DNA of 64,000 nucleotides. Source: Rhizobium sp. RM (lineage in GTDB: Bacteria; Pseudomonadota; Alphaproteobacteria; Rhizobiales; Rhizobiaceae). How positions within the stretch are numbered: the stretch's first letter is position 1; the number at the start of each line of letters is the position of its first letter. The notes beneath the pieces are model-generated. The model worked only from the letters and a program-made list of their open reading frames with translations. It searched no databases and was not told the origin of the DNA. Positions 33,803 to 52,077 of this stretch are shown piece after piece. The DNA lies in NCBI RefSeq assembly GCF_013390595.1, contig NZ_JACAWV010000008.1:434001-498000 (forward strand), given 5' to 3'. The position numbers and the translations under genes were made by a program.

Positions 33803-33837
33803 TGCCCCTACTTGGCTGAGGAAAAGGGACATCCCGG
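33803..33837 (-). promoter_or_regulatory. flaC leader element with anti-Shine-Dalgarno pairing
   Basis: On the minus strand CCGGGATGTCCC (33837-33826) lies about 30 nt before the start codon. Its TGTCCCT is complementary to the ribosome-binding site AGGGGCA (33809-33803) over 7 bp with one G-U pair, so the mRNA can fold to hide the site. The same element precedes flaA and flaB and, more weakly, flaD. Confidence 0.5.
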
Positions 33838-33987
33838 ATGGCGGGGAAGGACGTAACGGCGTGATGCCTGTTAACCTCTTTTTCGTCTTGGTTAACCGAT
33901 CCTTTCGATGGCCTCAGTTAAGGTAGGAATGGTTAACAAAGATTAAATGGAATTTACCGAAGTTAACAAAATGTAGCGGGCTAAACG

Positions 33988-34015
33988 AAAAAAGGCCGCG
34001 CAGATGCGCGGCCTT
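33988..34015 (-). terminator. rho-independent terminator of flaB
   Basis: Stem GGCCGCGC / GCGCGGCC, extended by AA/TT, loop of four, followed on the minus strand by TTTTTT. It is 27 bp after the flaB stop. It shows flaB is transcribed separately from flaC. Confidence 0.9.
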
Positions 34016-34042
34016 CTTCGATTTTTTGTTTTGTCGGTCCGA

Positions 34043-34963
34043 TTAACGGAAGAGCGACAGAACGTTCTCGGAGTTGGAGTTGGCGATCGACAGAGCCTGA
34101 ACGCCGAGCTGCTGCTGCGTCTGCAGAGCCTTGAGGCGGGTGGACTCTTCGTTCATGTCTGCGTCGACGAGGCGGCCAACGCCGGAGTCGATAGCGTCGG
34201 AGAGCTTCGTTGCGAAGTCTTCCTGCAGGCCGATACGCATGGAGAGCGAACCGAGCTTGGCAGCGGCGCTGGTCATCTTCGTCAGAGCTGTTTCGACGGA
34301 GTAAAGCGCGTTGTCGAGATCATTGCCCGTGACGTCGAGGTCGAGAACAGAAATCTGGGTGTATGTTACGGCACCAACGGTGGTGGTTGCACCGGTAGCG
34401 TTCAGGATGCCAGAGTTTGCATCGATCGTGCCAGGTGTGCCTTCCGTGTAAAGCAGGGAGTCAACATCCAGTTCGTAGGTCGTGGATTTAACGCTGACGT
34501 TGCCGTCGCTGTCACGAACGAAGCCGGACACAACTGTCTTCGGGCCGGCTGCATCGGATACCAGCCAGTTTTCGCCGCTGAACGACGCGCCCGTGCCGAT
34601 GGACTTGAGCTGCTCGAGAAGCTGCGTGACTTCTTCTTGGATCTTGGACTTGTCGACGCCCTCTTCTTTGGCCGCGACAACCTTTGCCTTGATTTCCTTT
34701 ACGACTTCGATCGCGGATTCCATACCGGCATATGCGGTATCAACTTTCGAAGCGCCAAGGCCCAGGGCGTCCTGGACGGCGGAGAGAGCCATGTTGTCGG
34801 AACGCATGGTGGTCGCGATCGACCAGTAAGCAGCGTTGTCCGAAGCTTCGCCAACCTTCAGGCCGGAAGAAACGCGGCCCTGTGTGGTTTCCATGTCCTG
34901 ACCGATCGTGCGAAGGGTCTGGAGAGCGGACATAGCGGCGATATTGGTAATAATGCTCGTCAT
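34043..34963 (-). CDS. flaB: flagellin FlaB
   Basis: A 306-residue flagellin starting MTSIITNIAAMSALQTLRTI. The central part (DVDSLLYTEGTPGTIDANSG to LYSVETALTKMTSA) is almost the same as in FlaA, while the ends differ more. It is a filament subunit, secondary to FlaA in Agrobacterium. It has its own promoter region, leader element and terminator. Confidence 0.95.
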   Translation of the reverse strand: MTSIITNIAAMSALQTLRTIGQDMETTQGRVSSGLKVGEASDNAAYWSIATTMRSDNMALSAVQDALGLGASKVDTAYAGMESAIEVVKEIKAKVVAAKEEGVDKSKIQEEVTQLLEQLKSIGTGASFSGENWLVSDAAGPKTVVSGFVRDSDGNVSVKSTTYELDVDSLLYTEGTPGTIDANSGILNATGATTTVGAVTYTQISVLDLDVTGNDLDNALYSVETALTKMTSAAAKLGSLSMRIGLQEDFATKLSDAIDSGVGRLVDADMNEESTRLKALQTQQQLGVQALSIANSNSENVLSLFR

Positions 34964-34970
34964 AGTAGTG

Positions 34971-35008
34971 TGCCCCTTGAATGGCTGATTAAAGAAGGGA
35001 CATTCCGG
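34971..35008 (-). promoter_or_regulatory. flaB leader element with anti-Shine-Dalgarno pairing
   Basis: Minus-strand CCGGAATGTCCC (35008-34997). TGTCCCTT pairs with the ribosome-binding site AAGGGGCA (34978-34971) over 8 bp with one G-U pair. Upstream, 35009-35195 is A/T-rich non-coding DNA that should hold the flaB promoter; I see no Rem-like repeat in it. Confidence 0.55.
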
Positions 35009-35195
35009 GTTCACCGGGAACGGCGCGCAGCGTCATGCTTGCTAACTGGCTGATTTTTAATGTTAGCTCGCCGTTTCAATGAGCTTAGGTAACGCCAGGT
35101 TGGTTAATGAATTGATAAGTCAGGAAGACAAATCTGTTGTTTTGCAAAATGAAACTGCAACCTTCGCGCGTGCGCGCGCGTAGTTCGAAATGCTT

Positions 35196-35236
35196 AAAAA
35201 AAAGATAAGGCCGCATCCGTATTCGGGATGCGGCCT
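35196..35236 (-). terminator. rho-independent terminator of flaA
   Basis: Stem GGCCGCATCC / GGATGCGGCC with a 7-nt loop, followed on the minus strand by TTATCTTTTTTTT. It lies about 135 bp after the flaA stop. Confidence 0.88.
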
Positions 35237-35370
35237 CTCTTGTGCATTCAGTCCGATTCAGCCTCTCGGACTTGTATGCTTTCTGTCCGGATATGCATTT
35301 GGTCAGCCCCCGAATGCATATTGGAAGAAATGGTTCCCCCAGCCCCGAAGGACTATGAGATGCTCGGTTC

Positions 35371-36291
35371 TTAACGGAAGAGCGAGAGAATGTTCTGCGA
35401 GTCGCTGTTGGCGATCGACAGAGCCTGGATAGCGAGCTGCTGCTGCGTCTGAAGAGCCTTCAGCTTGGTGGACTCTTCGTTCATGTCAGCGTCAACCAGA
35501 CGGCCAACGCCCTGTTCGATGGTGTCGGACAGCTTGTCAGCGAAGTCGCTCTGCAGATCGATGCGCGAAGACAGCGAACCGAGCTTTGCGCCAGCGCTGG
35601 TCATCTTCGTCAGAGCTGTTTCGACGGAGTACAGAGCGTTGTCGAGATCATTGCCCGTGACGTCGAGGTCGAGAACAGAAATCTGGGTATAGGTCTTTGC
35701 GCCAACGGTGGTGGTTGCGCCTGTCGCGTTCAGGATGCCGGAGTTGGCATCGATCGTGCCAGGCGTACCTTCCGTGTAAAGCAGGGAGTCTGCATCCAGA
35801 GCGTAGTCCGTCGTCTTGACGCTGACGTTACCATCGTTGTCGCGAACGAAGCCGGAAACAACCGTCTTTGTAGCGGCTGCATCGGATACCAGCCAGTTTT
35901 CACCGTTGAACGATGCGCCCGTGCCGATGGACTTGAGCTGGTCGAGAAGCTGCGTGACTTCTTCCTGGATCTTGGCCTTGTCAACGCCTTCTTCCTTGGC
36001 GGCGACAACCTTTGCCTTGATTTCAGTGACGACGTCGATTGCAGCGTCCATACCGGCGTATGCGGTATCAACCTTGGCAGCGCCCATGCCCAGCGCGTCA
36101 GAAACAGCGCCAAGAGCCTTGTTGTCAGAACGCATGGTGGTCGCGATCGACCAGTAAGCAGCGTTGTCCGAAGCTGCGCCAACCTTCAGGCCGGAAGAAA
36201 TACGGTCCTGGGTGGTCGACATGTCGGAAGCGATGGTGCGCAGGGTCGAAAGAGCGGCCATTGCGTTGGTGTTGGTGAGAATGCTCGCCAT
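35371..36291 (-). CDS. flaA: major flagellin FlaA
   Basis: A 306-residue flagellin (MASILTNTNAMAALSTLRTI ... ALSIANSDSQNILSLFR), the length of A. tumefaciens FlaA. It is the flagellin nearest fliP, the position of flaA, the essential subunit of the complex filament in Agrobacterium. ATG 36291 gives the canonical N-terminus; an in-frame extension upstream would cross the leader element. Codon use and the low number of repeats suggest high expression. Confidence 0.96.
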   Translation of the reverse strand: MASILTNTNAMAALSTLRTIASDMSTTQDRISSGLKVGAASDNAAYWSIATTMRSDNKALGAVSDALGMGAAKVDTAYAGMDAAIDVVTEIKAKVVAAKEEGVDKAKIQEEVTQLLDQLKSIGTGASFNGENWLVSDAAATKTVVSGFVRDNDGNVSVKTTDYALDADSLLYTEGTPGTIDANSGILNATGATTTVGAKTYTQISVLDLDVTGNDLDNALYSVETALTKMTSAGAKLGSLSSRIDLQSDFADKLSDTIEQGVGRLVDADMNEESTKLKALQTQQQLAIQALSIANSDSQNILSLFR

Positions 36292-36299
36292 AATAAATG

Positions 36300-36342
36300 T
36301 GTCCCTTGTTTTTAACGAGATACTGGAGTGGGGACATTCCGG
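36300..36342 (-). promoter_or_regulatory. flaA leader element with anti-Shine-Dalgarno pairing
   Basis: Minus-strand CCGGAATGTCCC (36342-36331). TGTCCC is the exact complement of GGGACA (36305-36300), which contains the AAGGG ribosome-binding site 11 nt before ATG. The hairpin would span about 37 nt. Confidence 0.55.
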
Positions 36343-36590
36343 ACTCGTATTACCGGCCACAACGTTTCGGCTTCATGCCAATCGGTTCAGAAATACTTGT
36401 TTCCAGAAACCAAATCCGCTGCGTGTGATCGGAATTTCGCAGCGAAAAATTGCGCAATTATTAATTTGGTCGTTAAGAAATACTCGAGAATACTTATGGT
36501 TACTGTTAAGTTTACTTAAATGGTAAGTTTTTAATTTAAAACTATGGTTATCCAGCCCCTAGAGAAATTGGTAAGCAAGCCGTTAAAATG
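36343..36590 (-). promoter_or_regulatory. flaA upstream promoter region
   Basis: About 250 bp of non-coding, strongly A/T-rich DNA (about 36450-36540) between flaA and the fliP terminator. It must contain the flaA promoter. I see no confident -35/-10 pair and no GCAAG direct repeat of the kind found before the basal-body operons. Confidence 0.4.
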
Positions 36591-36622
36591 CAAAAACCCC
36601 GCAGCACTGGGGCTGCGGGGTT
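36591..36622 (-). terminator. rho-independent terminator of the flgB...fliP operon
   Basis: Stem CCCCGCAGC / GCTGCGGGG (extended by AA/TT) with a 6-nt loop, then TTTTTG on the minus strand. It is 42 bp after the fliP stop and ends the long basal-body operon. Confidence 0.9.
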
Positions 36623-36663
36623 AAGAAACAGGGTTAATGGGTGTCAGTTCGGCACAGCGGCCG

Positions 36664-37401
36664 TTAATTGAACGATCTTACCAGGCTGCCAACAAGCAGG
36701 TTCCAGCCGTCAATCAGCACGAAGAAAAGAATCTTGAACGGCAGCGAAATCGAGGTCGGCGGAAGCATCATCATACCCATGGCCATGGTGATGGTCGCGA
36801 CGATCAGGTCGATGACGAGAAACGGCAGAATGATCAGGAAGCCGATTTCAAAACCGCGACGAATTTCCGAAAGCATGAACGCCGGAACCAGCACGCGGTA
36901 ATCGATAACGTTCGCCGTCATCACTTCCTGTCCACGCTCACGGGCGATATCGACAAAAAGTTTGAGATCCTTGTCGCGGGTATTGGCGGACATGAAAGTA
37001 CGGAACGGCTCAGCGATCCGCTCTACGGCTTGCTGCTCGTTGATCTGGTTCTGCAACAATGGCTGGACACCATCCGTCCATGCTTTGTCGAAGGTAGGCG
37101 ACATGACGTAGAAGGTCATGAACATCGCCATCGACAGCAGGATCATGTTGGACGGTGTTGATGCGAGGCCCATGCCCGAGCGCAGGATCGAGAACGCGAT
37201 CACGAAACGCGGAAAGCTCGTGACCATGATGAGAATGCCAGGAGCGACCGAAAGGACCGTCAGAAGTCCGAAAGTGCGGATAATCCACGCCGCCACCGAA
37301 CCGTCGATCTGTGTGTTGAACAAATCAGACGGAAATTGCTGGGCGTTGGCAAGACCCGGCAAGGCGAGAAGGACGGCGAGGGTTACAAAAAATCGAATCA
37401 T
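36664..37401 (-). CDS. fliP: flagellar export apparatus protein FliP
   Basis: A 245-residue inner-membrane protein of the flagellar type III export gate. It has a cleavable-type signal peptide (MIRFFVTLAVLLALPGLANA) and family blocks VMTSFPRFVIAFSILRSGMG, PSNMILLSMAMFMTFYVMSP and GMMMLPPTSISLPFKILFFV. It overlaps fliL by four bases and is the last gene of the operon. Confidence 0.97.
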   Translation of the reverse strand: MIRFFVTLAVLLALPGLANAQQFPSDLFNTQIDGSVAAWIIRTFGLLTVLSVAPGILIMVTSFPRFVIAFSILRSGMGLASTPSNMILLSMAMFMTFYVMSPTFDKAWTDGVQPLLQNQINEQQAVERIAEPFRTFMSANTRDKDLKLFVDIARERGQEVMTANVIDYRVLVPAFMLSEIRRGFEIGFLIILPFLVIDLIVATITMAMGMMMLPPTSISLPFKILFFVLIDGWNLLVGSLVRSFN

Positions 37402-37904
37402 TCGATGACAAAGGTCCGGAACATGACCTTGGATACGCGCCCCTGTGAGCGCAGGTCAACTCGTTCCTGAATGTCATCCTTAAGATATTGAAAGCCGCGT
37501 GGCCCTTCGAGTTGCTGGAGAGACACAGTCCTTACATAGGCGAGGATATCCTGATGGATATCTTCCGCCAGACCGACTTCGACAGGGCCTTTGAACATGA
37601 GAGCCACTTCCAGCCGCACCCAGTTGGTCGAGGGGTAGGCGAGGTTGGTGGTGATCGGGTCGAGCTGGACGATGCCGTTGGCTTCCGCGGGAATTTTCGG
37701 GATGCCTTCTTCCTTGCTCTCGCCATGCCCGCCTGCTGCGGCCTGCTGATGGGCAGCGGCTGTAGCGCCGGAGATCTTCGGCGCCATCATTCCGCCCAGC
37801 ACCCAGCCACCACCGCCGCCGAGAACGGTCAGGATGGCAAGGCCGACGATGGTCATGACCAGAGGCGACGACTTTTTCTTTTCCTCTGCCTGTGCATTGT
37901 CCAT
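37398..37904 (-). CDS. fliL: flagellar basal body-associated protein FliL
   Basis: A 168-residue single-pass membrane protein (helix about 15-38, VMTIVGLAILTVLGGGGGWV), with a periplasmic FliL domain ending in the conserved region VDLRSQGRVSKVMFRTFVIE. It supports stator function. A His/Gly/Ala-rich linker (AAAHQQAAAGGHGESKEE) follows the helix. Confidence 0.94.
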   Translation of the reverse strand: MDNAQAEEKKKSSPLVMTIVGLAILTVLGGGGGWVLGGMMAPKISGATAAAHQQAAAGGHGESKEEGIPKIPAEANGIVQLDPITTNLAYPSTNWVRLEVALMFKGPVEVGLAEDIHQDILAYVRTVSLQQLEGPRGFQYLKDDIQERVDLRSQGRVSKVMFRTFVIE

Positions 37905-37932
37905 GGCTTAGGTCCGCTCCATCAAGACAGCA

Positions 37933-38649
37933 TCAGATCGGCGAGAACAGGTCGACGACCTGCTGGCCAACCGGAGGCTGCTGAACCTCGGTCAGGCGAC
38001 CGCGACCACCGTAAGAGATGCGAGCCTCGGCGATGCGCTCGTAGGAGATCATGTTGTCGGCGTTGACGTCCTGCGGACGTACGATACCGGCGACGTTCAG
38101 AATGCGGATCTCGTGGTTGACGCGGACTTCCTGCGAACCGCTGATGATCAGGTTGCCGTTCTCCAGGATGCCGGTGACCACGGCTGCGACGAGCAGCGTC
38201 AGCTTTTCCGAGCGCTTGGTCTTGCCCTTGCTCTGCGTATCGGTGTCCGAGCCATAGTTGATGCTGGAGTCCGCCTGCGGGTTCCAACCCAGAACCTGTG
38301 CATTGGCTTTCCAGTTCAGGCCACTGGAGTTGGTGCGGTTGCGCTCGGTCTCGTTGTCGAAATCGGCCTTGTCATTGATCTGGATGTTCACCGTCAGAAT
38401 GTCGCCGATGTTGAGCGCGCGCAGATCCTTGAAGAGCGCGCCCTGGGTATCGCTCCACAACGAGTAACCGCTTGCCATATGTTTCGGCTGTTTCGGATAC
38501 ATGCCCATCTGCGGCGTCTGGCTGAACTGCAGACCGCTGCCGATCGGGCTCATCGAAGGCGCGTTGCCGATTTCCTTCAGGGTCTGGTTGTTCTGGCAGC
38601 CGGCAAGCAGCGCGAGCGGCAAAAGGAGGGCCGGAATACGAGAGGTCAT
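37933..38649 (-). CDS. flgH: flagellar L-ring lipoprotein FlgH
   Basis: A 238-residue outer-membrane lipoprotein with lipobox LLAGC (Cys18). It builds the L ring. Family blocks include SLWSDTQGALFKDLRALNIG, DILTVNIQINDKADFDNETE and NHEIRILNVAGIVRPQDVNA. It overlaps motE by four bases. Confidence 0.97.
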   Translation of the reverse strand: MTSRIPALLLPLALLAGCQNNQTLKEIGNAPSMSPIGSGLQFSQTPQMGMYPKQPKHMASGYSLWSDTQGALFKDLRALNIGDILTVNIQINDKADFDNETERNRTNSSGLNWKANAQVLGWNPQADSSINYGSDTDTQSKGKTKRSEKLTLLVAAVVTGILENGNLIISGSQEVRVNHEIRILNVAGIVRPQDVNADNMISYERIAEARISYGGRGRLTEVQQPPVGQQVVDLFSPI

Positions 38650-39182
38650 GAAGGGTCCTTCGAGGTGTTCGGGTCGGTAGCTTGCGACATGATGCCGGCG
38701 ACAAGGGCTGCCTTGGCAGCATCCATCTCGCTGAGGATCAGGCCCGACTGACGGGGTGGTAGCTGCATGATGATCGCGGCTGCAATTTCCTCATGCATTT
38801 TCTCAAGCTGAGGCGCTGCCGCATCGGCCTTCATCGTTTTGTAGACGTCGACCAGATTGGCTTTTGCCTGATTGAGGAAGTGATTGCGGCGTGCCAGCCA
38901 GTCTTCGTATTCCGCCTTGCGGTTTTCAAGAACGGTGATGCGCTCGTTGACATCAGCCTGCAGTTTCTCAAGTTCCTGTTTCTGCAGCAGGTAACGCTGA
39001 TCGCGGGCCGCGTCGGCAATGTTGGTGCAGAAGCGCTGGATTTCATCCTGCGTACTGAGTTCGGAGACGACGTTCTGCTGGCTTTCCGCCGTTGCGGCGG
39101 GAAGCAGGAACAGCAGAGACGCGACTGCGGCAAACCGGCAGAGGTTATCGGAAAGACTGCGGGTGCGTTGAACGTTCATCAT
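38646..39182 (-). CDS. motE: MotE, periplasmic motor chaperone (MotC-specific)
   Basis: A 178-residue exported protein: N-terminal signal (FAAVASLLFLLPAATAESQQ), a coiled-coil of about residues 50-105 (QKQELEKLQADVNERITVLE) and a C-terminal MgtE-N-like helical part (LPPRQSGLILSEMDAAKAAL). In S. meliloti MotE assists folding and stability of MotC. It lies between flgI and flgH with four-base overlaps on both sides. Confidence 0.9.
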   Translation of the reverse strand: MMNVQRTRSLSDNLCRFAAVASLLFLLPAATAESQQNVVSELSTQDEIQRFCTNIADAARDQRYLLQKQELEKLQADVNERITVLENRKAEYEDWLARRNHFLNQAKANLVDVYKTMKADAAAPQLEKMHEEIAAAIIMQLPPRQSGLILSEMDAAKAALVAGIMSQATDPNTSKDPS

Positions 39183-40300
39183 TGCAGCACGAGCTCCGCT
39201 TGAAGGGCACCGGCAGATTTGATGCCTTGCAGGATGGCGATGATGCCGTCTGCCTTGAGGCCAATGCTGTTGAGGCCGGCAACCAGTGTGCGAAGGTCAG
39301 GACCTTCCACAATGGCGACATTGCTGCCTTCCTGCATGGCCATGATGTCGGTCTGCGGCTGAACGGCTGTCTCGCCGCGTGAGAACGGTGCCGGCTGGAT
39401 CACCTGCGGCGTTTCTGTAACCTGCACGGTCAAGGTGCCGTAGCTGACCGCTACGCGGGAAATACGGACATCCGCACCGATCACGATCGTTCCCGTGCGC
39501 TCATTGATGACAACCTTGGCCGGCGTGTCGGTCTCGACAGTCAGATTTTCGATTTCGGCCATCAGGCGTGTCAGATCGGCGGTACGCGGCTTCTGAACAC
39601 CGATTTCCTGCGAATCGCGCGGTTCGGCAATCGCGTCGCCATATCGGGCGCGGGCGAATGCGTTGACGACATCGGCCACCCGGACGGCGGTCGAGAAATC
39701 GGGGTTTCTCAGTTGCAGGACGAGATTGACCGAATCCTTGAACTTCGAAGGCAGCTCACGCTCGATGATTGCGCCGTTCGGCACGCGGGCGGAGGTCGTG
39801 ACACCCTGCGTCAGTGTCGCAGCATCACCCTGCGCGGAAAAACCGTTGACGATCAGGGCGCCCTGCGCAACGGCGTAGATCTGACCGTCCGCGCCCGAAA
39901 GCGACGTCATGATGAGGGTACCGCCGCGCAACGAAGAGGCGTCGCCGAGCGAACTGACGGTCACGTCAACGCGGCTGCCGGGGCTCGCAAAAGGCGGCAG
40001 GTTCGTCGTGACCATCACGGCCGCGATGTTCTTTGCGTTCGACTGGCCGCCCTGTGTTGTAATGCCGAGGTTCTGCAGCATGGCGCGCATCGACTGCTCG
40101 GTGAACGGCGATGAGCGCAGACTGTCGCCCGTGCCTTGCAGGCCGACGACGAGACCGTAACCGATGAGCTGGTTGTCGCGACCGGCCTGCAGCGAGGCAA
40201 TGTCCTTGATCCGCGACGTATCGGCCTGAACCGGGAGCGCGGAGAGAAAGGGGAGGGCTGCGGCCAGAAACGCCGTGGCCAGAATACGCAAACTTCTCAT
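39179..40300 (-). CDS. flgI: flagellar P-ring protein FlgI
   Basis: A 373-residue periplasmic P-ring subunit with signal peptide (RILATAFLAAALPFLSALPVQA). Family landmarks are RIKDIASLQAGRDNQLIGYG, LVVGLQGTGDS and GPDLRTLVAGLNSIGLKADG near the C-terminus. Overlaps flgA and motE by four bases. Confidence 0.97.
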   Translation of the reverse strand: MRSLRILATAFLAAALPFLSALPVQADTSRIKDIASLQAGRDNQLIGYGLVVGLQGTGDSLRSSPFTEQSMRAMLQNLGITTQGGQSNAKNIAAVMVTTNLPPFASPGSRVDVTVSSLGDASSLRGGTLIMTSLSGADGQIYAVAQGALIVNGFSAQGDAATLTQGVTTSARVPNGAIIERELPSKFKDSVNLVLQLRNPDFSTAVRVADVVNAFARARYGDAIAEPRDSQEIGVQKPRTADLTRLMAEIENLTVETDTPAKVVINERTGTIVIGADVRISRVAVSYGTLTVQVTETPQVIQPAPFSRGETAVQPQTDIMAMQEGSNVAIVEGPDLRTLVAGLNSIGLKADGIIAILQGIKSAGALQAELVLQ

Positions 40301-40782
40301 TTCGCCATCACCTGGATAGTGCCGTCCTGCATCACGGTGCCATTCACAATGACGCCGGAATCGATATTGCGCACGCGCACCACATCGCCCATCGAGCCAT
40401 CAGTCATTGGGGTGCCGGATGCCATGAGTGTCATATTGCCGATCGTGAAGACGAGCTTGACGTTGGTTCCTCGTGTCACCAGCGATGGAACACGCAGTGC
40501 CGCGATCGGGATGGTGCGCCCGGGAAGCAGGGTTTGTTTCGAAACCATGCCATCCACTTCGCTGACATGGCTGGCGTAACCCGACGAGAGATTGGGGTTG
40601 GTCACTTCCACCGGCTTGACCTGGTCGGGCGTAATGGTTTCGCCCGGATAGATCGTGCGCGTCGGAACCAGCGCCATCGGAGACTGCGCCGCAGCGGCGA
40701 AGGCCGTCAATGAAATGGCGGACGTCAGGAACAAACGGACGAGTGCCGTTCTGTAGCTGCTATTTCTCTGGCTAAACGTCAT
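40297..40782 (-). CDS. flgA: flagellar P-ring chaperone FlgA
   Basis: A 161-residue exported SAF-domain protein, shorter than the gamma-proteobacterial FlgA, as usual in rhizobia. Signal segment about 12-32; landmarks RTIYPGETITPDQVKPVEV and LVTRGTNVKLVFTIGNMTLM. It helps P-ring assembly in the periplasm. Confidence 0.93.
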   Translation of the reverse strand: MTFSQRNSSYRTALVRLFLTSAISLTAFAAAAQSPMALVPTRTIYPGETITPDQVKPVEVTNPNLSSGYASHVSEVDGMVSKQTLLPGRTIPIAALRVPSLVTRGTNVKLVFTIGNMTLMASGTPMTDGSMGDVVRVRNIDSGVIVNGTVMQDGTIQVMAK

Positions 40783-40802
40783 GTTCGCCCGCCTTTCCGT
40801 TG

Positions 40803-41591
40803 TTACTTCAGGTTCTTGCTGACAATCGATGCCATTTCGTCAGCCGTGGTAATGACCTTGGAGTTCATTTCGTACGCACGCTGCGCCGTGATGAGATCCG
40901 TGATTTCCTTGACGGCATCGACGTTGGAGCCTTCGAGATAGGATTGCTTGATGTATCCGTAGCTCGGATCATCCGGCACGCCGATCACGGCATCGCCCGA
41001 CGCCGGTGTCTGTGCGAAGAGGTTATCGCCGAGCGGCTTCAGGCCAGCCTCGTTGGCAAAGTTCGCAATCGTCAACTGACCGAGTTCGGTGAACTCCGTT
41101 GCGTTACCAATACGTGCCGTCACCTGCCCGGTGCGGGTGATGGTGATGTCGGTGGCGTCAGTCGGAATGTTGACGTTCGGGATGACGTTATAGCCATCAA
41201 TCGTCACCAGATCGCCGTCGGCATTCTTGTTGAATGCGCCGGCACGGCTGTAAAGCGTCGAGCCGTCGGCGGCTTCGATCTGGAACCAGCCCTGGCCGAT
41301 GATTGCAACGTCGAGATTGTTGCCGGTCTCGATCAGGTTGCCCTGGGTGTGAATATTGCGGACAGCCGATGTCTGCACACCAAGACCGATATTGGCGCCT
41401 TCCGGAACGATCGCCTGGTTGGCGCGGTTCGGCACGCCCTGCATACGCTCAGTCTGATAAAGAAGGTCGGTAAACTCCGCACGTGCGCGCTTGTAGCCGG
41501 TGGTGTTGATGTTCGCGATGTTGTTGGCGATGACTTCCAGGTTGGTCTGCTGGGCGTCCATACCGGTCGCAGCGATGGCAAGAGCTCTCAT
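40803..41591 (-). CDS. flgG: flagellar distal rod protein FlgG
   Basis: A 262-residue rod protein. N-terminal [20 protein letters not shown] and [21 protein letters not shown]-terminal [20 protein letters not shown] and [20 protein letters not shown], both classic axial-protein motifs. No signal peptide; it is exported by the flagellar type III system. Confidence 0.98.
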
Positions 41592-41612
41592 GTCTTTACT
41601 TTCCTGCTGGTG

Positions 41613-41948
41613 CTAGATCTGCATCTTTGTGATGTCGAGGTAAGCCGTGACGATCTTGTCGCGGAGCGCGATTGCCGTCTGCAGCGACTGCTCGGCGGAC
41701 AACATTGCGTCGACCACTTCGCGGGTGTTTGCTTTGCCCTGAATGCCTTCGAACGACGCCACTTCCGCTTTTTTCAGATTGTTCATCGCGTCGACGGACA
41801 TGTTGCCGAGAACGTTGGCGAAGCTCATGCCGGTCTGCTGGCCGGGTGTCGTCTGCTGGCTGCCGAGCACGTTTTCCGTCAGGGACGAAACGCTGTTTGC
41901 ACCACGCGTCAGGGAGAGGGAGCTGAGCTGTTTGATACCGTCAATCAT
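41613..41948 (-). CDS. fliE: flagellar hook-basal body complex protein FliE
   Basis: A 111-residue FliE, the adaptor between the MS ring and the rod. The C-terminal half ([24 protein letters not shown] region) is the conserved part; the N-terminus is variable. It overlaps flgC by four bases. Confidence 0.93.
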
Positions 41949-42364
41949 TGTGATGCTTTCAGAAGGTCGATGGTGGAGGCAACGAGGTCACGCGTCTGGC
42001 GGATGACCTGAAGATTGGCGTCATAGCTGCGGTTTGCTTCGCGCATGTCTGCCATTTCGATCAGGATGTTGACGTTCGGCATCTTCACCATGCCGTTGCC
42101 ATCGGCTGCCGGGTTGCCGGGATCGTATTCGTGGGTGAAGTCACCCTTGTCTTCGCCGAGCTTCTTGACCGTGACGCGTTCGACGCCGCTGGCGCGATCC
42201 AGCTCGGAACCGAAGGTGACGGTCTTGCGGCGATAGGGATCAGCGCCAGGTGTGTCGCCGGTCGACCGGGCGTTGGCGATGTTTTCCGAAACGATACGCA
42301 GACGCGTGGACTGCACTTCCAGTCCGCTGCCGGCGATCTTGCTTGCCGCGCTCAAGGGGTCCAT
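41945..42364 (-). CDS. flgC: flagellar proximal rod protein FlgC
   Basis: A 139-residue rod protein: [40 protein letters not shown] and the C-terminal [20 protein letters not shown]. Follows flgB after 4 bp. Confidence 0.97.
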
Positions 42365-42368
42365 CAGT

Positions 42369-44884: not shown

Positions 44885-44895
44885 CCGTCAAATCC

Positions 44896-45630
44896 TCAGC
44901 GGGCGCCGCCCAGTGTCTTGATGCCTTCAGCGAAGGTGGATTCCGTGTCGCGCATCAACGAAGAGATGCTTTCGAACGCACGGTTGACCTGGATGAGCTG
45001 CGTCATCTGCGAAATGCCGTTGACGTTGGACTCTTCGACATAGCCCTGAACGACACCGATCTCGTGATTGTTGGCAACGGGAACGGGCTGTGCGACAGGC
45101 TTTACGCCGCTGTTTGGATGGCGCAGGAAACCTTGCGAAAGATCTGCCTGAAAGATGCCGAGCGTTGCGGCGATATTGTCATTCTGGCGGATTGCGCCAT
45201 CGAGACCGACAGTGATAGGGCCGCCATTCGGGTTCAACTGGATAGGGCCACCGCCCGCATCGAGAACCGGATACCCGTTTGAAGAAATCAGCGCGCCATC
45301 CGGACGCATGCTGAAGCGGCCGTCACGGGTCAGCACTTGGCCATCCGGCGTGTCCAGCGAAAACCATGCGTCGCCCTTGATGGCGAAATCGAAAGAGTTG
45401 CCGGTCTGCTCGAAAGCGCCCTGTTGCGTGGAAAGATAGTCGTTACCCTGCGAAACGAACGCGATCTTCGCGTTCATGTCATTGCGGGTCTTGGCAATCA
45501 TCTCGTCGAATTTGACCTCGGAGCCGCGAAAGCCGACCGTGTTCACGTTCGCCATGTTGTCGGAGATGGTGGTGAGACGACGCTCAAGCGCGATCTGCGA
45601 GGAAAGGGCGACGTAAAGTCCGGATTGCAT
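44896..45630 (-). CDS. flgF: flagellar proximal rod protein FlgF
   Basis: A 244-residue rod protein: MQSGLYVALSSQIALERRLT, ISDNMANVNTVGFRGSEVKF and the C-terminal VEESNVNGISQMTQLIQVNR. It lies 11 bp before fliI and directly follows the DUF1217 gene (1 bp). Confidence 0.96.
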   Translation of the reverse strand: MQSGLYVALSSQIALERRLTTISDNMANVNTVGFRGSEVKFDEMIAKTRNDMNAKIAFVSQGNDYLSTQQGAFEQTGNSFDFAIKGDAWFSLDTPDGQVLTRDGRFSMRPDGALISSNGYPVLDAGGGPIQLNPNGGPITVGLDGAIRQNDNIAATLGIFQADLSQGFLRHPNSGVKPVAQPVPVANNHEIGVVQGYVEESNVNGISQMTQLIQVNRAFESISSLMRDTESTFAEGIKTLGGAR

Positions 45631-45631
45631 A

Positions 45632-46411
45632 TCATTTGCCTCCGAGTTTCAGGGAATTGATGGAAAGCAGCAGGTCCGGCGAGATGCCGTAGCCGCTGGA
45701 AGAGCCGAAAACGGCGAGCGGGTCGTATGTTGTCGAAGGATTTTCCATTTCCCACATGATGGTGAAGCGCTCGAGGAGCTTTCCTACCTTCTCGGGGTCT
45801 TGCAGATCCTTGATATTGATCGTTTTTTCGATGAGTGCCGCCTGTTTGTCGACATCGGTCGCGGCGAACTCGTCGGGCAGGTTGAAAGCCGTGCGGAAAA
45901 CCTGCGCCAGCGCGTCATCCGCCAGAAAATCCATGCCGGAGGTGATCGTCGGCGCCATCCGCTCGAAATAAAGCGCGAGCCGCACGCCGGTGTTGTCGTC
46001 GCCGGCTGATTGCTCCAGCGTCGTGCGGTTATATTTGCTGATGACGCCGGATTTCGCCGCGTCCGTGGAGGTTGCCGCTGCACCGTCGGCGGCAAAATTC
46101 AGGGATTTCGCCAGGTCGGCGTAACGGCTGTCTGACAGCTTGTTGGCAAAGGCGTCCTTGTTGTCCACGCCCTCCGTCAGAACCTTGCGGATGAAGGCCT
46201 TGGCATAGGCCATGTCTTCCAGGCCGTGTGCCTTGAGAGCGTAATTATAAAGCCGCGTGTCGGCCATGAAATCGTCGATGGATTTCACGTCCGATATCTT
46301 TGACAAATAGTATTCGGTTTCCCGCGCCACATCCGGTTGCTTGGACACGCGGTCGAGCGATTTGCCGATGTCTTGGCTGATCAACTGGTAGCTGGTGTAG
46401 GTCGACGTCAC
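45632..46411 (-). CDS. DUF1217 family flagellar-cluster protein
   Basis: 259 residues from GTG 46411, with repeated DUF1217 units (TSYQLISQDIGKSLDRVSKQ; VARETEYYLSKI; LYNYALKAHGLEDMAYAKAF; IRKVLTEG). The family is found in alphaproteobacterial flagellar clusters; its job is unknown. An ATG at 46465 is in frame (277 aa) but has no ribosome-binding site and lies just 15 bp after the candidate operator, where the promoter should be, so the later start is preferred. It heads the operon with flgF and fliI, divergent from motA. Confidence 0.85.
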   Translation of the reverse strand: MTSTYTSYQLISQDIGKSLDRVSKQPDVARETEYYLSKISDVKSIDDFMADTRLYNYALKAHGLEDMAYAKAFIRKVLTEGVDNKDAFANKLSDSRYADLAKSLNFAADGAAATSTDAAKSGVISKYNRTTLEQSAGDDNTGVRLALYFERMAPTITSGMDFLADDALAQVFRTAFNLPDEFAATDVDKQAALIEKTINIKDLQDPEKVGKLLERFTIMWEMENPSTTYDPLAVFGSSSGYGISPDLLLSINSLKLGGK

Positions 46412-46479
46412 GGGGAATACCGTTCTCTTGTTGATGGCAAGGCACAAATCTGCCTTTGCACCCATTGTGACGCCGGTTG

Positions 46480-46495
46480 CTTGCGCGAAACTGTT
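46480..46495 (-). promoter_or_regulatory. candidate Rem-type operator for the DUF1217-flgF-fliI operon
   Basis: On the minus strand AACAG (46495-46491) and GCAAG (46484-46480), 11 bp apart, with TTTCGC between. It ends 68 bp before GTG 46411. A second, oppositely oriented copy serves motA 30 bp away. Confidence 0.5.
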
Positions 46496-46524
46496 TGCTG
46501 GAACGGTGATGAACGCGGGCCGCG

Positions 46525-46540
46525 GACAGGTTCACGCAAG
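46525..46540 (+). promoter_or_regulatory. candidate Rem-type operator before motA
   Basis: GACAG (46525) and GCAAG (46536), 11 bp apart, reading GACAGGTTCACGCAAG. The segment ACAG then TTCACGCAAGCC is repeated almost exactly before flgE. It ends 52 bp before the motA ATG, with TAGAGA 10 nt downstream. Confidence 0.6.
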
Positions 46541-46592
46541 CCACATTTTCTAGAGATGGTCGCATGGAACACTGTTCGGGCGTGGGCGATCA

Positions 46593-47465
46593 ATGAATAT
46601 TGTAATTGGACTTGTAATCACCTTCGGCTGCATCATCGGCGGCTATATGGCGATGGGCGGTCATCTGGACGTCCTCGTTCAGCCGTTTGAATTGGTGATC
46701 ATCGGAGGCGCGGGCCTCGGCGGCTTCATCATGGCAAACCCGATGAAGGTCGTGAAAGATTCGGGTAAGGCGCTGGGAGAGGCTTTCAAGCACTCGGTTC
46801 CCAAGGAGCGCAATTATCTCGACGTTCTCGGCGTGCTCTATTCGCTGATGCGCGATCTGCGCACGAAGTCGCGAAACGAGATCGAAGCGCATATCGACAA
46901 CCCGGACGAATCCTCGATCTTCCAGGCGGCACCCTCGGTTCTGAAGAACAAGGAACTGACCTCTTTCATCTGTGACTATGTGCGCCTGATCATCATCGGC
47001 AACGCGCGCAGCCACGAGATCGAGGCGCTGATGGACGAGGAAATCGAAACCATCCTGCACGACAAGCTGAAGCCCTACCATGCGATTACGACCATGGGCG
47101 ATTCCTTCCCGGCCATCGGTATCGTCGCGGCGGTTCTGGGTGTTATCAAGGCCATGGGCAAGATCAACGAATCGCCGGAAGTGCTTGGCGGCCTGATCGG
47201 CGCGGCGCTTGTCGGCACCATGCTCGGCATCATTCTGTCCTACTCGATCTGCAACCCGCTCGCATCGCAGGTCAAGATCGTCCGCACCAAACAGCACCGT
47301 CTCTACATCATCGTCAAGCAGACGTTGATTGCCTACATGAACGGCTCCGTGCCGCAGGTGGCGCTGGAATACGGCCGCAAGACGATCTCCAACTACGAGC
47401 GTCCTTCGATCGATGCCGTTGAGCAGGAAATGATGAATCCTGGCGGCGAAAACAAGGCGGCATGA
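46593..47465 (+). CDS. motA: flagellar motor stator protein MotA
   Basis: A 290-residue stator subunit with four membrane helices (1-20, 28-50, about 165-190, 200-225). [20 protein letters not shown] and the Pro-containing [20 protein letters not shown] are typical; the cytoplasmic loop carries the charged residues that contact FliG. It forms the proton channel with MotB. It overlaps fliM by four bases. Confidence 0.97.
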
Positions 47466-48421
47466 CGATGGCACAAGCGGCACAGCAACACGCACCGACA
47501 ATCGATTCCGCACTGCTGGCGAAACTCACGGGCGGTCTGTCCGACCGCAAGACGGTCGCCAAGATCGGCACGGACATCGGTCGCCTCTATAGCGAATTTC
47601 TTCCGGATATCTTCCATAGCGAAACCGGAATCGCCATCGAGGTCGAATATGTCGGCTCCGAATCGGGCCTGATGACCGATCTGATCGCAAACGTCGGCGA
47701 GAATTTCTCGGTTGCCGATTGCTCGCTGCGCAACTGGTGCCCCAACTTCATGATGGCGCTCGGCAACGGTTTTGTCATTGCCTTGATGGAACGCATGCTC
47801 GGTGCCGCTCCCGACACCATCGGCGAGCCTGATGAGCGCAGCCTGTCGCACATCGAAATCGATCTTGCCGCAATGGTCATGGGTCGCATCGCAGGCGTTC
47901 TGCGTTCCGGCGTGAATGCACCTGGTGGTTTTGAGGCGACGATCGATCCGCCTTTCAATTCCAACGGCAAAAGTGCCTTCGATGAGCAGCTCGCCGGCCT
48001 TTATGGCATGACGATCCGCATGAAGATCGTCATCGGCAAGGTCGCTTCCGAATTCGTTCTTATCGTTCCGCAGCGTCCGTTGCTCAAGACGTCCATTGTG
48101 GCTCCCAAGCCTTCCGCCCAGGCGTTGAAGAAGCAGGAAGAGTGGATGGACATGATTTCGGAGCAGGTAAAGCGATCGCAGGTCACGCTCGAAGCGCGAA
48201 TCACGCTCGAGACGCTGACGCTGAAGACGATCTCGAGACTGATGGTGGGCGACGTCATTCCATTCCAGGCCGCAAAACAGGACGATATCGGTGTTGAGGT
48301 GAGCGCCAATGGCTCGAAGCTCTACAATTGCGAGTTCGGCAAGTCCGGTGAGCGCTACATGGTTCGTGTCAAAAACAATGTCAGTACGGATGACGAGATC
48401 CTACGACATTTGATGAGTTAA
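47462..48421 (+). CDS. fliM: flagellar switch protein FliM
   Basis: A 319-residue C-ring protein, rather divergent as usual in rhizobia. The middle domain resembles CheC-type folds ([20 protein letters not shown]) and the C-terminus is the SpoA-like FliN-related domain ([20 protein letters not shown]). It is the CheY2-P target. It is 65 bp from fliN. Confidence 0.94.
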
Positions 48422-48448
48422 AACTTGGCCTACCCTTCGCGGGTTTTG

Positions 48449-48464
48449 GGCAGGCTGACGCAAG
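48449..48464 (+). promoter_or_regulatory. candidate Rem-type operator before fliN
   Basis: GGCAG (48449) and GCAAG (48460), 11 bp apart, reading GGCAGGCTGACGCAAG. It ends 22 bp before the fliN ATG, closer than at the other five genes. If it drives transcription the message would have almost no leader, so its use is less certain. Confidence 0.4.
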
Positions 48465-48486
48465 TTTCAAAGGGAATAATCAGCGC

Positions 48487-49041
48487 ATGGCTACGAAGAA
48501 AACACCTGTGACCGACGATACGACGCTGCCGTCACTTGATGACGGCAACGATATCGATCAGGCTATCGGCGATCTGCGCGGCGTTCTAAAAACGGACGCG
48601 GAAGGCTCTCTTTCCGGTTTTGGCGACTTCGGTGATTTCGGAGACGTGGGCGATGCAGCGCAGGATACAGATCTTTCAGCTTTCGGCGGTGGCGCCGGGA
48701 GCTTTGCAAGCGACAGCTTCGCAATGGACGACTTTTCGGCAACGTCCGATGTTGCTGGCGTCAAGGCGCCACTCGGCAGCGGTCTGTCGGACAATCTCGA
48801 TCTCATCATGGACATTCCGATTGATGTCCAGATTGTTCTCGGCACAAGCCGTATGCTGGTGTCGGGTCTGATGAGCCTCGAGGAAGGCGCAACCATCGCG
48901 CTCGACCGTAGGATTGGCGAACCCGTCGAGATCATGGTCAATGGTCGCCGCATTGCGCGCGGCGAGATTACTGTTCTTGAAGATGACGATACGCGCTTCG
49001 GCGTAAAATTGATTGAAGTACTGAGTACAAGAAAAGCCTGA
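48487..49041 (+). CDS. fliN: flagellar switch protein FliN
   Basis: A 184-residue FliN with a long acidic, Gly/Asp/Phe-rich N-terminal extension ([12 protein letters not shown]) and a C-terminal SpoA domain ([40 protein letters not shown]). It forms the lower C ring and docks FliH. It is followed by fliG after 27 bp. Confidence 0.96.
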
Positions 49042-49068
49042 TCCCTGTGGGGACGGAGAGGAAAGACC

Positions 49069-50112
49069 ATGATGGACTTTGAGGATTTCGGTAACCCTGT
49101 GGCGGGGAAGCCGTTGTCTCAGGCCGACAAGGCGGCCGCTGTGCTTCTGGCCATGGGAAAAGGCGTCGCAGGCAAGCTGCTGAAATTTTTCACGCAGCAT
49201 GAACTGCAGATGATCATTTCCTCGGCCCAGACGCTGCGCGTCATTCCTCCCGACGAGCTGGCTCAGATCGTTGCCGAGTTCGAGGACCTGTTCACGGAAG
49301 GAACAGGTCTCATGGACAACGCCAAAGCCATCGAAAGCATTCTCGAAGAAGGGCTTACGCCGGAAGAGGTCGACAGTCTTCTCGGCCGTCGCACGGCCTT
49401 CCAGGCTTACGAAGCGTCGATCTGGGATCGGCTTCAGGATGCAGAGCCTGGTTTTGTCGGCAAGTTCCTGTTGCGCGAACATCCGCAGACCATCGCTTAT
49501 ATCCTCTCCATGCTGCCATCGTCCTTCGCGGCGAAGGTTCTTCTGACCATTCCCGAAGAGCAGCGTGCCGACATCATGAACCGAACGGTCAACATGAAGG
49601 AAGTCAGCCCGACGGCCGCTCAGATCATCGAAAAGCGTGTGGTGAACCTCATCAACGAAATCGAGGCAGAGCGGAATGCGGGTGGCTCCACGAAGGTCGC
49701 AGACCTCATGAACGAACTCGACAAGCCGCAGGTCGATACCCTGCTCAGCTCTCTCGAAACGCTCAGCAAGGAAGCTGCCAACAAGGTCAAGCCGAAGATC
49801 TTCCTCTTCGACGACCTCATGTTCATGCCGCAGCGCAGCCGTGTCATGCTTCTCAACGACGTTTCCGGCGATGTACTCACCATGGCGCTGCGTGGCGCCA
49901 CGGCCGAGATCAAGGAATGTGTCCTGTCCAGCATCAGCCCGCGTCAGCGCCGCATGATCGAATCGGACCTCGCCGTTCCGCAGGCATCGATCAACACCCG
50001 CGAAGTGGCCATCGCCCGCCGCGCCGTCGCACAGGAAGCCATCCGTCTGGCGAATTCCGGACAGATCCAGCTCAAGGACGTTGCCGAAGCCACCCAATCG
50101 GCAGCCGCCTGA
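49069..50112 (+). CDS. fliG: flagellar switch protein FliG
   Basis: A 347-residue FliG with N-terminal, middle (EHPQTIAYILSMLPSSFAAK; EHPQ motif) and C-terminal domains; the torque helix lies in FDDLMFMPQRSRVMLLNDVS followed by LTMALRGA. It connects FliF to FliM and contacts MotA. Confidence 0.97.
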   Translation: MMDFEDFGNPVAGKPLSQADKAAAVLLAMGKGVAGKLLKFFTQHELQMIISSAQTLRVIPPDELAQIVAEFEDLFTEGTGLMDNAKAIESILEEGLTPEEVDSLLGRRTAFQAYEASIWDRLQDAEPGFVGKFLLREHPQTIAYILSMLPSSFAAKVLLTIPEEQRADIMNRTVNMKEVSPTAAQIIEKRVVNLINEIEAERNAGGSTKVADLMNELDKPQVDTLLSSLETLSKEAANKVKPKIFLFDDLMFMPQRSRVMLLNDVSGDVLTMALRGATAEIKECVLSSISPRQRRMIESDLAVPQASINTREVAIARRAVAQEAIRLANSGQIQLKDVAEATQSAAA

Positions 50113-50192
50113 GCGGAAGCCGGTTGATAACCCGGCCGCGTACCGGGAAGGGCGTTGCGATCCGCAACCCTGATCGTTAGTTTCCTGACAAC

Positions 50193-50222
50193 GGGCCTGC
50201 CGGTATCGGTGGGCCCTTTTTT
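50193..50222 (+). terminator. terminator-like hairpin between fliG and flhB
   Basis: GGGCC-tg-CCG-gtat-CGG-tg-GGCCC followed by TTTTTT, ending 17 bp before the flhB start. A second dyad without T-run (GTTGCG-3-CGCAAC) lies at 50154-50168. It should stop or reduce fliG read-through into flhB. Confidence 0.8.
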
Positions 50223-50239
50223 ATCGCGGGGAACGGGCC

Positions 50240-51319
50240 GTGTCGGACGAGGACAAGGACAGTAAAACAGAAGCCCCCACGGAGAAAAAAATCCGTGATG
50301 CGGCCGAAAAAGGCAATCTTCCGTTTTCCAGGGAAGTGCCGATCTTTGCATCCTCGCTCGCCTTTTACTGCTATCTCGTCTTTTTCCTGCCTGAAGGTGC
50401 CGGGCGCATCGGCGAAACTTTGAAAGACCTTTTCGGTCAGCCGGAGCAATGGAACCTGAGTGCCAGCCCGGATGTCACGTCTCTGCTGTTCTTTCTCGGC
50501 ATGGCAATCGCCAATCTGCTCTTGCCGGCCATGTTGCTGTTCATGGTTTTCGGTCTGGCTTCATCCATTTTCCAAAACCTGCCGTCACCGGTGCTGGAAC
50601 GGGTACGACCGCAATGGTCTCGCGTGTCCCCGGCGGGAGGGTTCAAACGCATCTACAGTGTCCAGGGTTTTGTCGAATTCGGGAAGTCTCTTTTCAAGAT
50701 CCTGATTGTCTCGATCATCATGTTCTTCGCGCTGCGCGGAGAATACTACAACATCATCGATCTGATGTTTTCCGACCCTCAGGTCATTTTCGTCAAGCTG
50801 ATCGATGTCGTTAAAAAAATGATGATCGTCATTCTGCTGTCGACGGCACTTCTGGCGGCGGTTGACCTGTTATGGACGCGCCATCACTGGTTCAGCCAGT
50901 TGAAGATGAGCAAGCAGGAAGTGAAGGACGAATTCAAACAGTCGCAGGGCGACCCGGTCGTCAAATCCCGCCAGCGCTCGATTGCCCGCGATCGTGCTCG
51001 CCGCCGCATGATCAACAATGTCCCACGCGCCACGCTGGTGATCGCCAACCCGACGCACTTTGCGGTGGCACTCCGTTATGTCCGCGAAGAAAGCGACGCG
51101 CCGATCGTCGTCGCCAAGGGGCAGGACCTTATCGCATTGAAAATCCGTGAGATTGCGGAGAAGAACGATATCCCCGTTTTTGTCGATCCTCCGCTTGCGC
51201 GCTCCATGTTTGCGCAAGTCTCGACCGATAATGTGATTCCACCAGTCTTTTACAAGGCTGTGGCTGAACTCGTGCATCGGGTTTACGCCAGGAAATCACC
51301 GAAATTACGGGTTCAATAA
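50240..51319 (+). CDS. flhB: flagellar export apparatus protein FlhB
   Basis: A 359-residue protein with four membrane helices (about 30-55, 85-115, 145-170, 180-210) and a cytoplasmic domain with the self-cleaving NPTH ([14 protein letters not shown]). It switches export from rod/hook to filament substrates. The start is GTG 50240 ([20 protein letters not shown]). It follows a terminator directly; no obvious separate promoter was found. Confidence 0.97.
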
Positions 51320-51323
51320 TTAG

Positions 51324-51761
51324 ATGAAAAAATGCCCTTATTCTGAACAGCGAGAAATGATCGTAGCAGAGGCTATCAACCCTGTAGCGACGGAATTGCG
51401 CCTGCTCGATCCGGCTGATTTGATTTCATTGCTCCGTTTCGAGTGCTACGGCAGTATCGCCGACCTCGTGTCTTCGGCTGCGGAGCTTTATTACCATCCC
51501 GGTACCATCAATTTCGGTGCGGGTGGGGAATATAAATTAGAATGGGAAGGCGTTCCCGAAGTTGTTATCGATCTGGAATTGAAACCACGTGGCGCCACTG
51601 TCTATGCGCAATTGACGCTCGCCGCAGAACATGCGGCAATCGAAATCAATCATATTTCCTTCCAGAACCCATCGGATAATCCGGACGAAAATACGGAGTT
51701 TCTGCGTCGCAGCTTCCGCGAGGCACGTTTTGTCTCCAGTCGTCAGGACGAGGCGGCCTGA
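51324..51761 (+). CDS. conserved hypothetical protein after flhB
   Basis: A 145-residue acidic, soluble protein, no signal peptide or membrane helix, starting 4 bp after flhB. Composition is ordinary (LRLLDPADLISLLRFECYGS; NFGAGGEYKLEWEGVPEVVI), C-terminus ends NTEFLRRSFREARFVSSRQD. I do not recognise it. Tight spacing with flhB suggests an export-related role. ATG 51357 (MIVAEAINP) is a possible later start. Confidence 0.75.
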   Translation: MKKCPYSEQREMIVAEAINPVATELRLLDPADLISLLRFECYGSIADLVSSAAELYYHPGTINFGAGGEYKLEWEGVPEVVIDLELKPRGATVYAQLTLAAEHAAIEINHISFQNPSDNPDENTEFLRRSFREARFVSSRQDEAA

Positions 51762-52077
51762 TTCTCTTCAGGTTGTATGGTGAAAAAATGCTGCGCCTGC
51801 CGCGTGTGTTAGGCGCAGTCTTCGTTTGTGGAGCTATTTCTGCCTCACCACAGGCTCTAGCTTGCCTGAAACCTTCGGCATTGATTGAATCTACTAACGA
51901 AAATTAAGGAATGGCTTGCAAATCGGCTGAGTTGTTTGTTACGTATCGAATTAACGATTTGTTAACGAACGACAGGTCGCGATGGCGGTTTCAAGCCATC
52001 GCTGATGCGCATGATGCTTCTGGTCGTTTCCGGCAAGGCGCCGGATTTTCCCTGACAGTACGAACTGAGCGGAACTC
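51762..52077 (+). promoter_or_regulatory. flhB-flaD intergenic region: hairpin and flaD promoter
   Basis: A 316-bp non-coding gap. A hairpin CTGCGCCT / AGGCGCAG (51791-51798 with 51811-51818, weak T-run) may end the flhB unit. The part 51900-51975 is A/T-rich with two TTAACGA words and probably holds the flaD promoter. No GCAAG direct repeat is present. Confidence 0.45.
52041..52052 (+). promoter_or_regulatory. flaD leader element (weaker copy)
   Basis: CCGGATTTTCCC matches the flaA/flaB leader element CCGGAATGTCCC at 10 of 12 positions and lies 25 nt before the flaD ATG. Pairing with the ribosome-binding site (GCGGAAC) is only TTCC/GGAA, so the switch may be weaker here. Confidence 0.4.

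Follow-up and report, generated by a model that had tools for sequence, protein, structure and literature searches.

What couples the late motility genes of rhizobia to the building of the flagellum? Flagellin and chemotaxis genes form class III of the rhizobial motility genes in the relevant passage of PMC8429497, and the signal that couples this class to completion of the basal body is only presumed ('some signal') in the corresponding part of a review. The question is raised by a stretch of 64,000 nucleotides (nt) of Rhizobium sp. RM (contig NZ_JACAWV010000008.1, positions 434,001 to 498,000; hereafter the window), in which four flagellin genes, flaA to flaD, were proposed in an initial annotation to share a 12-nt leader element (the 12-mer) that is complementary to the ribosome-binding site. 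Comparison with relatives gives good support to a wider description, in which the 12-mer would be one part of an approximately 120-nt leader RNA whose last helix, P5, covers the Shine-Dalgarno (SD) sequence. We favour, with moderate confidence, the reading that this RNA is a conserved leader of flagellin messages in rhizobia and their relatives, that P5 is its shut state, and that it serves as a cis tag of class III genes which a regulator of late assembly, likeliest FlbT, would read.

Layout of the leader RNA in the window

The predicted layout begins with an outer helix, P1, which encloses a variable hairpin, P2, and a hairpin, P3, of the form GGC-AUGAN-GCC. P4 (CCGG..CCGG) follows, and then P5, in which AUGUCCC pairs with the SD. 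The SD hairpin originally proposed held up, yet it is only the last helix of this larger RNA, of which P1 to P4 had been missed. The upstream part is the more widely kept, because some genera, and the chemotaxis-operon copies described below, have P3 and P4 without the anti-SD strand.

The 12-mer itself (CCGGAATGTCCC/CCGGGATGTCCC) lies 29-39 nt upstream of flaA, flaB and flaC as annotated, with exact matches in the window at flaA and flaB only, and in these three leaders TGTCCC is indeed complementary to the gene's own SD. The partners of UGUCCC(UU) are GGGACA in flaA, AAGGGGCA in flaB and AGGGGCA in flaC, the last two with one G-U pair each. As an anti-SD the element stands for its UGUCCC part, whereas its CCGG part belongs to P4 and not to the SD pairing. 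When the leaders were folded without coding sequence, the mean pair probability of P5 was 0.92 for flaA, 0.88 for flaB and 0.80 for flaC; with the first codons included, P5 was lost from the minimum-energy fold of flaA and retained in those of flaB and flaC. All five helices are present in the unconstrained minimum-energy fold of flaB. Both computed folds of flaC contain P3, P4 and P5, with P1 and P2 present in one and absent from the leader-only fold, and in the leader-only minimum-energy fold of flaA other pairs displace P4.

The copy claimed for flaD could be located, but only in a weak version, with two mismatches and with a four-pair UUCC/GGAA helix in place of the anti-SD:SD pairing. At up to three mismatches the window holds 66 matches to the 12-mer against a chance mean of 68.1, and the flaD copy is therefore without weight by itself. 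CCC is absent from most flaD leaders of the genus among those listed, and present in one of them (L072). For the flaD helices in Table 1, P2, P4 and the P5-like helix come from a computed fold, while P1 and P3 were read from the sequence.

We used two covariance models to locate copies of the RNA: R1, whose seed contains no sequences of the genus, and R2, whose seed includes leaders of the genus and a further copy at 4954. A weak R2 match at 20037-20129 (+), of 13.9 bits, has an AUGUCC strand with GGGCA downstream and lacks P2 and P3; it may be due to chance. The genome also carries a flagellin-like gene away from the cluster (L083, G000:C19:861223-861621; open frame of 632 amino acids), at which the covariance model gave no leader element at E 0.1.

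Table 1. Flagellin genes, copies of the 12-mer, predicted leader RNAs and neighbouring features, in window coordinates (the two arms of a helix are separated by a slash)
Feature	Position	Strand	Remarks
flaA	35371..36291	-	Flagellin_N + Flagellin_C; name from the initial annotation
flaA 12-mer	36331-36342	-	exact; 39 nt to ATG at 36291
flaA leader RNA	36292..36435	-	R2 match 36293-36435, 70.0 bits; R1 30.3 bits
flaA helices	P1 36423-36417/36364-36358; P2 ~36413-36382; P3 (GGC-AUGAA-GCC) 36379-36369; P4 (CCGG) 36356-36353/36342-36339; P5 36336-36331 (UGUCCC)/36305-36300 (GGGACA)	-	fold and sequence reading
flaB	34043..34963	-	Flagellin_N + Flagellin_C
flaB 12-mer	34997-35008	-	exact; 33 nt to ATG at 34963
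flaB leader RNA	34964..35087	-	R2 91.6 bits; R1 48.0 bits
flaB helices	P1 35075-35069/35025-35019; P2 35067-35062/35046-35041; P3 35039-35029; P4 35017-35014/35008-35005; P5 35002-34995/34978-34971	-	unconstrained fold
flaC	32858..33796	-	Flagellin_N + Flagellin_C
flaC 12-mer	33826-33837	-	one mismatch; 29 nt to ATG at 33796
flaC leader RNA	33796..33916	-	R2 59.4 bits; R1 21.3 bits
flaC helices	P1 ~33906-33900/33851-33846; P2 33896-33890/33876-33870; P3 33868-33858; P4 33845-33842/33836-33833; P5 33831-33825/33809-33803	-	
flaD	52078..53364	+	Flagellin_N + Flagellin_C
flaD 12-mer	52041-52052	+	two mismatches; 25 nt to ATG at 52078
flaD leader RNA, divergent	51956..52081	+	R2 27.8 bits; R1 14.1 bits, E about 1 (chance level)
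flaD helices	P1 51968-51973/52023-52028; P2 51979-51986/51995-52002; weak P3 near 52009-52017; P4 52029-52034/52040-52045; P5-like 52048-52051/52071-52074	+	
Fifth leader copy	4954..5068	+	R1 52.4 bits, E 2e-11, best own-genome match; R2 53.5 bits (copy in R2 seed)
Fifth copy helices	P1 4967-4973/5011-5017; P2 ~4977-4990; P3 4997-5007; P4 5018-5022/5030-5034	+	computed folds
Protoglobin-MCP gene	5170..6795	+	3' of fifth copy; Pfam Protoglobin + MCPsignal; start codon uncertain
STAS open reading frame	6792-7094		STAS_2; downstream of Protoglobin-MCP gene
flaF	63704..64000	+	PF07309; incomplete at window end

Comparative evidence for the helices

The N-terminus of FlaA was searched, with matches in 30 of 41 genomes and, in a sample of 71 from the GTDB family, in 60; the leader set comprised 250 flagellin-like starts from 100 genomic stretches and the window. 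From such leaders we used A2, in which 29 leaders of other genera, hand-chosen for clear helices, were aligned by MAFFT on sequence alone, and A3, which holds the best 150 of 195 model matches (146 distinct). In A2, both-side changes occurred at 17 of 25 pairs against 9.7 after shuffling (none of 500 shuffles was as good), and 83.7% of cells were paired against 34-48% for slid structures, the share per helix being 94% in P1, 68% in P2, 99% in P3, 97% in P4 and 63% in P5. A3 was fitted to the structure; in it the paired share of cells was 91.2% versus 76.0%, with both-side changes at all seven P1 pairs and all five P2 pairs. Similarly, the arms of P1 paired at -11.36 kcal/mol with their own partners versus -8.31 kcal/mol when swapped between genera, with none of 2000 permutations as good (178 leaders, 50 genera), and a control region 45 nt further upstream of P1 was flat, with no advantage for own pairs in 178 leaders. 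P3 and P4 hardly vary, so that their support comes from conservation and not from covariation. For P1 and P2, sequence comparison offers compensating changes, and for P5 preserved pairing. Unconstrained folds of 180 leaders contained P1 in 124, P3 in 87, P4 in 110 and P5 in 133; 25 of the 180, from 13 of the 50 genera, had P1, P3, P4 and P5 together, a combination that none of five shuffled sets of 180 produced.

The pairing with the SD can be followed across the same leaders. Of the 250 flagellin leaders, 192 have CCGG..CCGG within their final 100 nt, whereas 20 rounds of mononucleotide shuffling yielded 3-12 such leaders. GGGRC lies no more than 24 nt before the start codon in 135 of 137 leaders with AUGUCCC and in 16 of 43 without it, a tally in which related genes are not independent. 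The 11 nt after the CCGG hairpin pair with the SD region at a mean of -9.80 kcal/mol for the leader's own SD, -8.95 for an SD from another genus and -5.28 for a shuffled strand (178 distinct leaders with the CCGG hairpin, 50 genera). Own pairing was equalled by 1 of 2000 permutations with one leader per genus, and by 10 of 2000 among the 180 leaders selected by P3 and P4, with the control strand at 83%. The gain of own over swapped partners is small because UGUCCC is common to most leaders, and the joint absence of AUGUCCC and GGGRC gives the clearer signal. One genome (G105) has the matched change UGUUCC with GGAACA, and UGCAAA replaces UGUCCC in five leaders of four genera. The initial annotation had suggested that the pairing is under selection, and it is preserved across relatives, both in the advantage of own partners over partners swapped between genera and in the correlated loss of AUGUCCC and GGGRC. 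As in an anti-SD sequestering hairpin, the SD is predicted to pair with an upstream strand, and to do so in relatives as well.

The same common UGUCCC would allow one leader to pair with the SD of another flagellin, as it would if the leader were clipped off to act as a trans-acting anti-SD small RNA across the paralogues. Own partners beat swapped ones, however, as cis pairing predicts, though this comparison is across genera only, and we consider a trans-acting RNA very improbable. Two leaders without AUGUCCC (L125:3273-3382 (+) and L137:3003-3112 (-)) have, by eye, GGUAC..GUACC across the SD region, possibly an alternative cover.

In the 180 leaders, which were selected by the P3 pattern, the loop of P3 reads AUGAN in 165 and AUCAN in 15. 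Another way to view this hairpin is as a DNA operator, since GGCATGATGCC is near-palindromic and a palindrome GGCATNATGCC might be the site of a transcription factor, for instance Rem. However, the palindrome-compatible loop ATGAT is found in 84 of the 180 leaders, the other loops break the palindrome and keep the RNA hairpin, and P1 and P2 covary as RNA. We reject the DNA palindrome and regard an operator as extremely improbable. An AUG follows P4 in 158 of the 180 leaders. A common upstream open reading frame (ORF) beginning at this AUG was also considered and rejected, because its frame is mixed (40 in frame with the gene, 67 and 51 out) and a stop lies ahead of the gene in 73 of 158.

By eye, hairpins rich in GC and close to runs of T or A were noted at 33990-34015, 35205-35235 and 36597-36620. 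These terminator-like hairpins lie between, and just before, flaA, flaB and flaC, and each leader therefore probably starts its own transcript. Such an arrangement would suit a 5' stability element, whose helices shield the abundant flagellin mRNA from decay while P5 merely tunes initiation, and part of a review ties FlbT to mRNA decay in Caulobacter. Helices would suffice for stability, however, with no need for the AUGAN loop to be conserved or the CCGG stem to be invariant, and P5 covers the SD specifically, so that we hold this explanation to be quite unlikely. At three other loci (L113, L122 and L138) a common TTTGGTAGG or TTTAGTAGG, then CCATA, lies about 10-35 nt upstream of P1; this is possibly a promoter, in which case the transcript start would fall close to P1.

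Copies outside the flagellin genes and known RNA families

The leader RNA is not confined to flagellin genes. A fifth copy lies upstream of a gene for a methyl-accepting chemotaxis protein (MCP) with a Protoglobin domain, which heads a chemotaxis operon, and R1 ranks this copy first in the genome, followed by flaB, flaA and flaC (Table 1). AUGCUU follows its P4, and hence it has no anti-SD strand. The ORFs next after the STAS ORF were named by eye as CheY-like and CheA-like.

We examined 40 R1 matches in the family, mostly away from flagellin starts among those listed, by BLAST against the proteins of the window, by Pfam for some and by reading. Downstream of them lie 15 MCP genes like that at 5170, 4 other MCP genes, 2 che genes, 11 flagellins and 2 PAS-GGDEF-EAL genes, while 6 have no clear gene or resemble chance matches. 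The 15 (L197-L211) all precede an MCP that, among the proteins of the window, matches the one at 5170 best, with 38-62% identity, and the MCP downstream of L201 shows no Protoglobin domain. No homologous motility gene was found for L233-L235 (20-22 bits), which were taken as chance. Each of 17 genomes of the genus that were searched with R2 has one match of 37-54 bits away from flagellin leaders, the gene downstream having been read in the window's own genome and in G021 (L197) only, and six further R2 matches of 19-23 bits are spread across the 17. UGUCC follows P4 in none of 21 chemotaxis-type leaders. These retain P3 and P4, and their P1 is paired in 66% of cells, above all 500 shuffles.

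The two matches before PAS-GGDEF-EAL genes, in two relatives, are weak copies (L218:201-306 (+), 28.3 bits; L223:201-319 (+), 27.2 bits) and may point to a link with cyclic-di-GMP turnover. They could be claimed for a riboswitch or other small-molecule sensor, in which the P1-P2-P3 junction and P4 would bind a ligand, for example a cyclic nucleotide, and switch P5; the junction, the conserved P3 loop and the nearly invariant P4 do resemble an aptamer. What the recurring targets have in common, however, is an assembly stage and not a metabolite, P2 is freely variable, and the GGDEF-EAL matches are weak and come from two genomes only. We therefore think a riboswitch unlikely.

R1 matches occur in 57 of the 71 genomes sampled from the GTDB family and, at E 0.001, in 20 of 121 drawn from the order, 16 of the 20 being outside the window's family; among other genomes of the class, to which Caulobacter also belongs, 8 of 239 gave weak matches (best E 4e-4). 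No family of Rfam 15 reached its gathering score on the leaders of the window or of 20 relatives' loci, the only match in the window being a tRNA elsewhere. At E up to 5, every match in the region 33600-36700 fell short of its gathering score and lay off the flagellin leaders as such, the best being on the intergenic hairpin near 34000. The flg-Rhizobiales RNA (RF01736) is likewise a folded leader, and it too belongs to a flagellar gene of this order, but it is a different RNA. Its loci L255, L258, L260, L262 and L263 precede flgF-like ORFs (by eye), whereas the present element precedes flagellin or MCP/che genes. RF01736 gave no match at E 0.001 in the genome of the window and none at gathering score in the window itself or the 20 loci, and R1 matches none of the RF01736 loci L255-L260. 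At E 0.001 RF01736 is found in 23 of 199 genomes of the order, and above its cut-off in 5, all of one genus.

In Campylobacter, CsrA and FliW exert flagellin-linked feedback on flaA mRNA through an RNA-binding protein. Flagellin mRNA is the target of control there as it would be here, but the GGA of CsrA sites is not conserved in the present leaders: all four bases occur next after the CCGG of P4, most leaders have GGGGCA or GGGACA as their SD, and no conserved GGA of the CsrA type was found over or near the SD. Titles and abstract openings in the literature searched describe no structured flagellin leader in rhizobia, and the surveys of Agrobacterium and Sinorhizobium RNAs make no mention of flagellin in their main texts.

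FlbT and the proposed control of class III genes

The initial annotation placed FlaF and FlbT in this cluster, and both are there. The gene flaF lies at the window edge, and a FlbT domain match (PF07378, G000:C20:498057-498428) begins 57 nt past the window end (498000), so that the genome encodes both proteins (PF07378, PF07309). In the passages of reviews that treat it, FlbT is reported to act on flagellin leaders in Caulobacter and Brucella. A motility screen in Agrobacterium fabrum recovered flbT and flaF, and the relevant part of the same paper gives flagellin and Che transcripts as the class III targets of Caulobacter FlbT. The leader element occurs in 56 of 61 genomes with FlbT and in 1 of 10 without it, where it is weak. 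These three lines make FlbT the leading candidate for a protein that would read the leader RNA. The FlbT-regulated leaders of Caulobacter (fljK) and Brucella (fliC) are similar to those described here in being flagellin 5' leaders, controlled after transcription in genomes that have flaF and flbT, a likeness drawn from passages of reviews and later papers. The passages on FlbT do not describe a chemotaxis-operon leader, although one introduction names Che transcripts as targets.

We suggest that P5 would be the closed state for flagellin translation, and that a regulator of late assembly would recognise the surface formed by P3, P4 and the AUG beside P4 and would set whether P5 forms. The likeliest such regulator is FlbT, alone or in complex with unsecreted flagellin. 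The chemotaxis-operon copy, having no anti-SD strand, may be read by the same regulator with another output (stability or termination). The leader RNA would in this way be a cis tag of class III motility genes, keeping flagellin messages shut until the base of the flagellum is built. More tentatively, it is possible that one fold marks both flagellin and chemotaxis mRNAs as class III, that FlbT with unsecreted flagellin reads this fold, and that completion of the basal body opens P5, all without a FliA-type sigma factor.

Several observations weigh against this scheme. Within the window, the full layout is found in the minimum-energy fold of flaB only, those of flaA and flaC being partial, and fold energy is unusual relative to shuffles for flaD only (z -3.2; the others range from +1.1 to -1.3). 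Among relatives, recognisable P3 and P4 are missing from 69 of 249 distinct leaders, pairing in A2 is lowest in P5 and P2 (63% and 68% of cells), and RNAalifold on a broad MAFFT alignment of 90 leaders (A1) recovers P3 and P4 only, with a covariation term of -0.15; P1 emerged from a narrower set and from the swap tests. In the 21 chemotaxis/MCP leaders, both-side changes and covariation score were equalled in 33 to 239 of the 500 shuffles, with 0.31 from the swap test; covariation there is not above controls, and P1 in these leaders is accordingly not established. The relevant passage of PMC8429497 names FliM and Orf38 as class III activators, a route without this RNA. FlbT is described, in the parts of the literature consulted, as a repressor in Caulobacter, whereas in Brucella, and for lateral flagellins, it is described as an activator. 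Its co-occurrence with the element is also what the possession of flagella would produce by itself.

A conserved RNA common to flagellin leaders and, in part, to the leader of a chemotaxis operon is a concrete target for mutation in the question of how completion of the basal body is sensed, and with the covariance model class III genes could be looked for throughout the order. The P3 loop and P4 are defined candidate binding sites at which the disputed role of FlbT, as repressor or activator, can be tested. If the more tentative reading above is true, the leader RNA would be the missing checkpoint element of rhizobial motility.

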